DNA from: a virus
IMG/VR virus record: IMGVR_UViG_3300021425_002203
Span: 1 to 25,286 of that record
Length of the DNA stretch: 25,286 nucleotides
Strand: one strand, 5' to 3'
Below are positions 9,899-25,286 of the stretch, piece after piece. The notes beneath the pieces were generated by a model that saw only the letters and a program-made list of their open reading frames with translations, had not been told where the DNA came from and searched no databases. Each line of letters starts with the position of its first letter. Position 1 is the first letter of the stretch. The position numbers and the translations under genes were made by a program.

Positions 9899-9920
9899 AT
9901 TGAATCATCTCTATCATATT

Positions 9921-9949
9921 ATTATACAGGTGTATATAGGGCTTTACAA
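9921..9949 (-). promoter_or_regulatory. Sigma70-type promoter
   Basis: Reading the minus strand, TTGTAA (9949-9944) is followed by a 17-base spacer and a consensus TATAAT (9926-9921). The -35 matches four of six bases of TTGACA. It lies in a noncoding stretch, with a start expected near 9914 and the first ATG at 9898. It would drive the lipoprotein, speD, nuclease, lysin and glycosyltransferase genes. This is read from sequence only. Confidence 0.6.
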
Positions 9950-9958
9950 CATATCCTT

Positions 9959-9977
9959 TGTCTGTTTTTACCAGACA
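9959..9977 (-). repeat. Small hairpin between promoter and tRNA
   Basis: TGTCTG and CAGACA form a 6-bp stem around a 7-base A-rich loop (on the minus strand). It lies just 3' of the tRNA and 5' of the promoter. There is no following U-run on the minus strand, so it is not a convincing terminator; it may take part in tRNA 3' processing or be chance. Confidence 0.3.
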
Positions 9978-9999
9978 CCAAAATGTAAATAACGGCACG

Positions 10000-10071
10000 C
10001 TGGTCTGGTAGGATTCGAACCTACAACCCATCGGTTAACAGCCGATTGCGCTGCCATTGCGCCACAGACCA
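10000..10071 (-). tRNA. tRNA-Asn (anticodon GTT)
   Basis: A complete 72-base tRNA on the minus strand. The 7-bp acceptor stem is TGGTCTG/CAGACCA with G as discriminator, the D-stem is GCGC/GCGC, the anticodon stem is ATCGG/CCGAT with loop CTGTTAA (anticodon GTT), and the T-arm is GTAGG-TTCGAAT-CCTAC. CCA is not encoded, so it must be added by the host enzyme. Asparagine discriminator G is as expected. It follows the structured element at 10075-10175 by only three bases, and both are likely on one precursor transcript. It may support AAC-rich translation or replace a cleaved host tRNA. Confidence 0.95.
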
Positions 10072-10074
10072 AGG

Positions 10075-10175
10075 CCGATATGCCAGCGGGTAACTATACC
10101 ATCCTAAGTAACTGCACGTTTGACGCAACTCATACTGGAATCAACCGCGTAACTCAGACGTTGCTGGCATATCGG
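10075..10175 (-). ncRNA. Candidate structured RNA closed by a 13-bp perfect inverted repeat
   Basis: Positions 10075-10087 and 10163-10175 are perfect inverted repeats of 13 bases, enclosing 75 bases. Transcribed on the minus strand this gives a stable closing helix. The interior carries the hexamer AGTTAC three times and a variant AGTTGC, at about 17-24-base intervals (minus-strand starts 10154, 10130, 10113 and 10095). A short GGTA/TACC hairpin lies next to the 3' arm. It starts three bases after the stop of the head-domain gene and ends three bases before the tRNA. No long ORF on the minus strand explains it. It may be a processing element, a regulatory RNA or a 3' end stabiliser; I do not recognise a family. 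Confidence 0.5.
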
Positions 10176-10178
10176 AGT

Positions 10179-10553
10179 CTATTCTGTTATATCGAAAGCG
10201 GAGCCTTTCCACATCTTGCTAGACTGCTCACGCCTTCTCATAATTTGGTTTCTCTTAGATTCCGCCCAGGACTTACCAGAATCTCCGCCCCACAGCAACC
10301 ATGCAATAAGACCATTAGAAGGGTATCCTTCTTCTCCCTGCTTCCACCCCTTGCCCTTCTTGTCAACTTCGTGACGGCTAAAGAATGAATGCATTCTTAA
10401 CACGGTGCTCTCGCTTAGATTTTTTTTATTAGCAATATCTCTTGCGCGAGCAATGCCAACAGCGGTTCCTCCACGATTAAATTCATCTCTTAGTGCCAGA
10501 CCTCTACGAGCATTTGATGCCATAGAATCAGTCGGCTTGTACGTTTCTGCCAA
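10179..10553 (-). CDS. Head-associated small phage domain protein
   Basis: A 124-residue basic protein with a pattern I recognise from phage head regions: YKPTDSMASNARRGLALRDE, GGTAVGIARARDIANK, LRMHSFFSRHEVDKKG and LIAWLLWGGDSGKSWA. In other phages this domain appears alone or fused to prohead protease or other head proteins; its biochemical role is not established as far as I know. The start is a TTG at 10553 with GGGAG nine bases upstream; starting at the next ATG (10523) would cut the conserved N-terminal YKPT segment. It overlaps the small zinc gene by 26 bases and lies after the terminase group, consistent with head function. Confidence 0.65.
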   Translation of the reverse strand: MAETYKPTDSMASNARRGLALRDEFNRGGTAVGIARARDIANKKNLSESTVLRMHSFFSRHEVDKKGKGWKQGEEGYPSNGLIAWLLWGGDSGKSWAESKRNQIMRRREQSSKMWKGSAFDITE

Positions 10554-10686: not shown

Positions 10687-11223
10687 TTATTGTAGCATTC
10701 CTAGTTTTGTAACATAATCGTACATTACAATACCGCTGGCTACGCTGACATTTAGGCTTCTTACGCTACCCAATTGAGGTATATAAACAACTTCGTCTGC
10801 CATATTTAACGCTAGATCGCTGACGCCCCTTTGCTCCTCACCAAAAATCATAAACGAATCTGGCCTCCACTCATAATCAGTAATAGGAACAGCACCAGGA
10901 ATGTTGTCTACTGCCACCCATTTTGCCTTACGAACATGTTTGTTTTCTAGCCAAACCTGACCAAGAAAATTAGCATACTTTAAATGAATATAATTATGAG
11001 AGCCAACCGCGCCCCTTCTATCCCATCTTTTCTTTCCTACTATCCAAGTTTCTTTTGCCATAAAAGCATTACTGTTTCTTATTCCAGAAGACTTATTTAA
11101 ATCACCAGAAATATTTTCAAATGCTGTGATGAAAGGAAGACGGCGGGTATCAAGATCCGCCTTTATTTGTTCAGTTTCCCATTCTTTATAATAATCAATG
11201 ACATTACGAGTTGTTGGCTCCAT
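10687..11223 (-). CDS. SpoU/TrmH-family RNA 2'-O-methyltransferase
   Basis: A 178-residue protein with the three SPOUT (SpoU) motifs: ENISGDLNKSSGIRNSNAF with an N..R pair near residues 37-49, FMIFGEEQRGVSD (GEE..G) near 125, and VVYIPQLGSVRSLNVSVASGIVMYD near 145-170, where SLN and the trefoil knot bind S-adenosylmethionine. The family methylates ribose 2'-OH of tRNA or rRNA; several family members modify tRNA position 18 or 34. It is single-domain, without the L30e-like RNA-binding domain of many rRNA enzymes, so it resembles TrmH or TrmL-type enzymes. The start overlaps the previous gene by 20 bases behind AGGAG. It neighbours the phage tRNA-Asn. Confidence 0.85.
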   Translation of the reverse strand: MEPTTRNVIDYYKEWETEQIKADLDTRRLPFITAFENISGDLNKSSGIRNSNAFMAKETWIVGKKRWDRRGAVGSHNYIHLKYANFLGQVWLENKHVRKAKWVAVDNIPGAVPITDYEWRPDSFMIFGEEQRGVSDLALNMADEVVYIPQLGSVRSLNVSVASGIVMYDYVTKLGMLQ

Positions 11224-21970: not shown

Positions 21971-21990
21971 TTTCCTCCAATAAAAGAGTA

Positions 21991-22018
21991 TGGCACTAGG
22001 AAGTATATCCTAGTGCCA
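21991..22018 (-). terminator. Hairpin between ssb and dnaE
   Basis: A perfect 11-bp stem, TGGCACTAGGA at 21991-22001 and its complement at 22008-22018, with a 6-base loop. On the minus strand it is followed by TACTCTTTTATT, a broken T-rich run, and then the GGAGG of dnaE. It lies 17 bases after the ssb stop. It could partly terminate transcription so that ssb is made in greater amounts than dnaE, or stabilise the ssb mRNA 3' end. Confidence 0.65.
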
Positions 22019-22035
22019 CACTCAGGTCAACAATT

Positions 22036-25170: not shown

Positions 25171-25286
25171 TTAAATACTCCGCTCGCAATTTCTCTGTCA
25201 TCTTTCTTTGTTCTGCACGAACTCTATTATCTTTATCTACTGAAAGTCTAGAGGAATGAATGGAAGAAAAGTTAATAGAGTTCGTG
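25160..25286 (-). CDS. Unknown protein, C-terminal fragment (5' end outside window)
   Basis: A minus-strand frame enters at the right edge and runs 42 codons to a TAG at 25160-25162, eleven bases inside the helicase gene. The visible tail is polar and basic (DNRVRAEQRKMTEKLRAEYL), likely helical. It contains an AACTCTATT-type inverted repeat (25216-25229 and 25273-25286). Too little remains to name it. Confidence 0.55.
   Translation of the reverse strand, partial: TNSINFSSIHSSRLSVDKDNRVRAEQRKMTEKLRAEYLNGI
25216..25286. repeat. 14-bp perfect inverted repeat at the window edge
   Basis: CACGAACTCTATTA at 25216-25229 is the exact reverse complement of 25273-25286, with a 43-base spacer. It lies inside the truncated gene. 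The outer arm coincides with the end of the sequence, so it may continue or may reflect a fold-back at a contig end. Confidence 0.6.

Follow-up and report, generated by a model that had tools for sequence, protein, structure and literature searches.

A conserved structured RNA element of uncultured phages with a candidate antisense match to helix 69 of 23S rRNA

We identified a conserved structured RNA element in a genome fragment of an uncultured phage (IMG/VR record IMGVR_UViG_3300021425_002203; "the window" is the whole ~25-kb stretch analysed, 25,286 nucleotides). Covariation supports its assignment as a structured RNA, and no Rfam family matches it. The conserved core of the element is, minus one base, the reverse complement of the actinobacterial 23S rRNA segment GGUAACUAUAACCAUCCUAAGG, which comprises helix 69 (H69) together with the flank on its 3' side. 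The element probably belongs to a new class of phage RNAs, which would base-pair with 23S rRNA.

Setting of the element

The window contains a perfect 13-bp inverted repeat with arms 75 nt apart. The earlier note on this DNA placed the repeat 3 nt from a tRNA-Asn gene and 3 nt from a stop codon, and this is correct; the stop codon is the TAG of a minus-strand open reading frame that ends just upstream of the element (Table 1). The arm sequence is unique in the window. The same note took this to be the only noncoding stretch, which is incorrect: positions 9899-9998, 21971-22035 and 25171-25286 are also noncoding, and two of these stretches have strong hairpins. The strong intergenic inverted repeats at 21986-22023 (16 bp, 6-nt loop) and at the window end (25216-25286, 19 bp) are likely terminators or other elements.

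The main genes (for helicase, primase, DNA polymerase, RecA, large terminase and SpoU methylase) are all on the minus strand. The SpoU-family RNA methylase gene (10687-11223) is directly before the open reading frame upstream of the element, and a link to rRNA or tRNA modification is possible. The terminase is ~63% identical to terminases of Streptomyces phages, e.g., Gilson (Stanwilliamsviridae), in which tRNA genes also follow the terminase region. These similarities suggest that the host of the phage is probably an actinobacterium.

Table 1. Features of the element and its surroundings, in window coordinates
Feature	Position	Strand	Basis or remark
Structured RNA element, three-way junction	10074..10176	-	CM R1 match and covariation in 17 sequences
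P1 5' arm CCGAUAUGCCAGC	10163..10175	-	13/13 pairs kept in 17/17 sequences
P1 3' arm GCUGGCAUAUCGG	10075..10087	-	Partner of P1 5' arm
P2 5' strand CUGAGU, pairs with ACUUAG (10104-10109)	10152..10157	-	MFE fold, consensus
Variable P2 arm	10111..10151	-	Only GUGCAG (10112-10117) kept in nearly all relatives
Core UACUUAGGAUGGUAUAGUUACC, 22 nt	10089..10110	-	Antisense to actinobacterial 23S H69 and 3' flank (GGUAACUAUAACCAUCCUAAG)
P3 hairpin GGU-AUAGUU-ACC	10089..10100	-	Fold, consensus, covariation alignment
Conserved 5' flank UAGAC	10177..10181	-	UAG usually ends the upstream ORF, but in L028 it does not
Upstream ORF, 124 aa, phrog_2859-like, no assigned function	10179..10553	-	A relative of this ORF lies before the element in every flank that was read
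tRNA-Asn(GUU), first gene downstream of the element	9999..10071	-	Replaced by other tRNAs in relatives

A conserved three-way junction

The predicted fold has an energy of -40.3 kcal/mol on the minus strand (z -4.55) and -35.5 kcal/mol on the plus strand (z -4.87), and on both strands it beats all 200 shuffles. The chance of finding a perfect 13-bp arm pair in 25 kb is only moderately low; we conclude that the inverted repeat is not a chance occurrence because it is conserved with compensatory changes. Relatives were gathered by IMG/VR pattern scans and protein-based fetches, which gave several dozen contigs, all of them metagenomic. The element occurs once per contig in the 12 contigs that were searched whole. 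The alignment comprises 17 distinct sequences of 81-105 nt, and the covariance model (CM R1) was built from 12 training sequences. The window scores 106 bits with this model, being itself one of the training sequences.

P1, the helix formed by the inverted repeat, is paired in all 17 distinct sequences, with 5 of its 13 pairs changed on both sides and none broken. Pair 3 occurs as G-C, C-G and A-U, pair 6 as A-U and G-C, and pair 10 as C-G and U-A, and there are further changes at pairs 11 and 12. Over the whole structure 28 cells are changed on both sides, and none of 500 shuffles attains the covariation score. When the partners are slid by 1-3 columns, the share of paired cells falls from 94.5% to 27-41%. 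In the consensus, a three-way junction joins P1, a P2 arm that is variable in length and sequence, and P3, a small hairpin (GGU-NNNGUU-ACC). Lengthening P1 by UAGAC/GUCUA was rejected, as it suits only some relatives. The sole wobbles in P1 and P3 (in L139 and L226 for P1, and L009 for P3) are G-U pairs on the minus strand. Together with the direction of the genes, they point to a minus-strand RNA as the product.

These results bear out the novel structured RNA that the earlier note had put forward among other readings. It had proposed a covariance search as the check, and named a lack of compensatory changes in the stem, or a conserved protein frame at homologous loci, as arguments against. 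Compensatory changes are present, no such frame was found, and there is no Rfam match. A plus-strand open reading frame (10080-10388) was rejected as a protein because the frame starts inside the element, is antisense to a conserved gene, and the DNA covaries as a stem. A promoter inside the element was also rejected; the window has a -10-like TATAGT there, but relatives do not conserve it. The four AGTTRC copies listed earlier are present, on the minus strand, but only the last, in P3, is kept in divergent relatives. Three of the four are missing in short relatives, and the protein-binding array that these copies had suggested is not supported.

In searches of Rfam 15 at the gathering cut-off, tRNA alone matched in the window. 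A permissive scan of the window gave two chance matches, and the relatives (as well as the B groups described below) gave tRNA or nothing. ARAGORN, searching for tRNA and tmRNA, called only the tRNA-Asn, and the element forms no cloverleaf. There is no Rfam match to an HDV-like (theta) ribozyme, and P1 encloses the whole element, in contrast to the nested double pseudoknot of that class. The stem is followed by CCTT in the window, where a terminator scan gave no call, and in relatives by TTA, TCTA or TCA, or by TTTTA in L029 and L110. By its sequence, the element is not a terminator in most relatives.

The upstream open reading frame and the UAGAC motif just upstream of the element are conserved (Table 1); in L028 the frame ends earlier and the motif stays. 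Most relatives have a tRNA 3-5 nt downstream of the element, and its identity changes (Asn, Gln, Pro), as if this site were a hot spot of tRNA exchange. For example, two kinds of Asn, two kinds of Gln and Pro tRNAs occupy this place in L003-L019, L102, L143 and L144. Genes for tmRNA were identified in related phage contigs (L232, 8677-8901; L147 and L148, 8960-9213).

The spacing to different tRNAs would fit an intercistronic insulator or tRNA leader, in which the stable stem would shield the end of the mRNA once RNase P has cut at the tRNA, and the likeness to 23S rRNA is incidental. However, L226 and L232 have a protein gene in place of the tRNA directly downstream, L029 and L110 have a promoter (TTGACA-17-TATAAT) between element and tRNA, and the core is kept in all of these. 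Thus, the element is not tied to the processing of tRNA, which also weakens an earlier suggestion that it is a processing signal separating the tRNA from the mRNA. Moreover, an insulator requires a stem but has no need of invariance in the loop and junction. We consider this explanation unlikely.

Complementarity to 23S rRNA

Sequence conservation is best in the 3' part of the element, around CUURGGAUGGUNNNGUUACC. The complementarity of this part to 23S rRNA was spotted by eye first and tested afterwards; it had been missed in the earlier note, the interpretation of which was in part supported overall. The H69 sequence was verified in records of Streptomyces, Tsukamurella, Actinomyces, Nonomuraea and Arthrobacter.

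When the element is taken whole, the match of the window is only moderately unusual (reached by 2 of 200 shuffles, p about 0.01), and the rest of the element has no antisense match to rRNA that is significant against shuffles. The signal is in the core. All nine distinct cores align best at one site of a 4.7-kb Streptomyces rRNA stretch, with scores of 15-18, and for each of the nine no shuffle out of 500 reaches the core score. On sequence, this is what is expected of an rRNA-targeting antisense RNA. Core/23S duplexes, predicted for four variants, have energies of -30 to -34 kcal/mol, versus shuffle means of -19 to -23 kcal/mol.

The loop variants keep the match. With the loop triplets GUA, AUA, UAU and UUG every core base is paired and one rRNA base is bulged, and by our own count only 12 of the 64 possible triplets are able to pair fully in this way. 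The stem sequence GGAUGG fits H69 of actinobacteria (ACCAUCC), not that of E. coli (ACGGUCC). For the full complex with an H69 fragment, a modest net gain is predicted (-0.5 to -10 kcal/mol), since co-folding without pseudoknots must open P1.

Related cores in other phages

If the core is antisense to H69 of the host, phages of other hosts are expected to carry TTAGGACCGT-loop-GTTACGG. A scan for this pattern with a 3-nt loop identified 13 loci, with the loop TTA in 12 of them; the 3-nt-loop core was found in none of 793 bacterial genomes from two phyla. When loops of 1-8 nt were scanned, those of 3, 4, 5 and 6 nt gave 13, 17, 15 and 4 matches (49), and those of 2, 7 and 8 nt gave none. Loops of 1 nt gave four matches, all of one repeated coding-like sequence. 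A few matches are uninformative: L290 is rRNA contamination, and L245 and L288 resemble chance matches. The remaining matches are recurring families in unrelated phages, in scaffolds other than that of the element described above (A).

Group B1 consists of hairpins placed at a stop codon or behind one, mostly upstream of a DsbA-like gene of T4-like contigs. In cultured phages, the regions upstream of dsbA relatives were without the core. In group B2, which is located after ribonucleotide reductase or other genes, the core is followed by a hairpin that is an intrinsic terminator in most variants. B2 variants have only two blocks in common: the core, and (U)CGCUAC within the hairpin that follows. 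The block UCGCUAC, in the terminator loop in most variants, is antisense to GUAGCGA, the 23S rRNA segment next to H69. B1 and B2 loci of T4-like and Bacteroidota-like phages include L248, L249, L254, L261, L262, L263, L269, L281, L296 and similar ones; none of eight B loci tested has an Rfam match. The loops TGTC, TTGCT and ACTT of the B groups do not fully pair with H69 loop bases 1915-1918. Thus, pairing there may rest on the flanks. Antisense of B1 to 16S rRNA (530 loop, 338 region) was dropped: there are exact 9-11-mers, but shuffles score about equally. Host genomes gave three pattern matches, none of which is a CM match, and the cultured phages Gilson and DSL-LC01 gave no CM match. A phage collection searched with A and B elements gave nothing, or chance and rRNA matches only.

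Three further explanations can be weighed against these groups. A protein- or polymerase-binding RNA, e.g., put-like antitermination before an untranslated tRNA array with UUAGGA and GUUAC as protein contacts, would account for the position ahead of tRNA arrays and for the highly conserved hairpin loop and junction. We regard this as quite unlikely, because it leaves unexplained the match to 23S rRNA, a hairpin stem that differs along with the H69 version (A versus B groups) and the adjacent 23S block UCGCUAC in B2. Alternatively, the plus strand, which reads like H69 (GGUAACUAUACCAUCCUAAG), could be the product, a mimic that decoys rRNA-modifying enzymes or ribosome factors; P1 is palindromic and so folds on both strands. 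However, the G-U wobbles of L139, L226 and L009 are A-C mismatches on the plus strand, the genes are on the minus strand, and B2 follows co-directional genes and its terminators have their longer T-run on the antisense strand, which make a mimic very unlikely. Finally, the resemblance to rDNA in inverted orientation could indicate that the element is a leftover of captured DNA from an rRNA gene and has no function today. Already disfavoured by covariation, given the compensatory stem changes, this is extremely improbable, as the loop variants keep pairing and similar cores recur in unrelated phages.

Proposed function

From the structure and the host-type-matched antisense sequence, we infer that the RNA may base-pair with the ribosome in the cell. 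It seems rather probable that the phage makes a minus-strand RNA of ~101 nt that presents the H69 antisense on a three-way-junction scaffold and most likely pairs with 23S rRNA, which would capture or inactivate ribosomes or take effect at the upstream stop codon. The scaffold would expose an antisense copy of H69 and of the segment 3' of it, and the target would be 23S rRNA on 50S subunits or immature ribosomes, at the intersubunit bridge B2a. H69 forms this bridge and contacts the decoding site (PMC3973299). The first contact may be loop-loop, between the P3 loop AUAGUU and the H69 loop AACUAU, with pairing then extending along UUAGGAUGG / CCAUCCUAA. A synthetic PNA directed against H69 inhibits growth of E. 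coli (Kulik et al., 2017, as cited in PMC7038079), so this site is accessible to antisense.

One possible outcome is that host ribosomes or 50S subunits are captured or inactivated and host translation is shut off. Another is that the RNA acts on ribosomes as they terminate at the immediately preceding stop codon. It might function in cis, on the mRNA that carries it, or in trans once RNase P has freed it from the tRNA. The placement directly after stop codons is suggestive of function but is a weak pointer, as phage genes are tightly packed.

The similar, host-matched cores of unrelated phages suggest that phages make RNAs that pair with ribosomes. We give an even chance to the broader proposal that phages of several host phyla encode RNAs, on at least three scaffolds, with host-matched antisense to H69 (sometimes to GUAGCGA) that would bind the 50S subunit to control translation.

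Comparison with known systems

Like the element, T4 rnaC and rnaD (species 1 and 2) are small structured phage RNAs beside tRNA genes, and we know of no function for them. They differ in having no match to the element and no significant antisense to 23S or 16S rRNA. The hairpin loop of T4 rnaD (L301, 1554-1672) contains UCGCUACC, the same 23S-antisense block as in B2.

CopA/CopT and RNAI/RNAII are antisense RNAs that start with loop-loop kissing. They share with the element a hairpin complementary to a target hairpin, but the target there is an mRNA or replication primer and here, putatively, ribosomal RNA. Archaeal and eukaryotic C/D and H/ACA guide RNAs also contain short stretches antisense to conserved rRNA, the H69 region among their targets. 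The element is without box C/D or H/ACA architecture, and to our knowledge such guides do not occur in bacteria or phages.

In the literature searched, we found no natural phage or bacterial RNA antisense to the 23S decoding-bridge helix. The anti-H69 PNA mentioned above, which inhibits bacterial growth (Kulik et al., 2017, cited in PMC7038079), is antisense to H69 like the element but is man-made and without a scaffold. If the proposal is correct, phages would have a direct RNA-to-ribosome route of takeover, orphan noncoding RNAs near phage tRNAs would gain a function, and the element would be the natural counterpart of what synthetic anti-H69 PNAs do.
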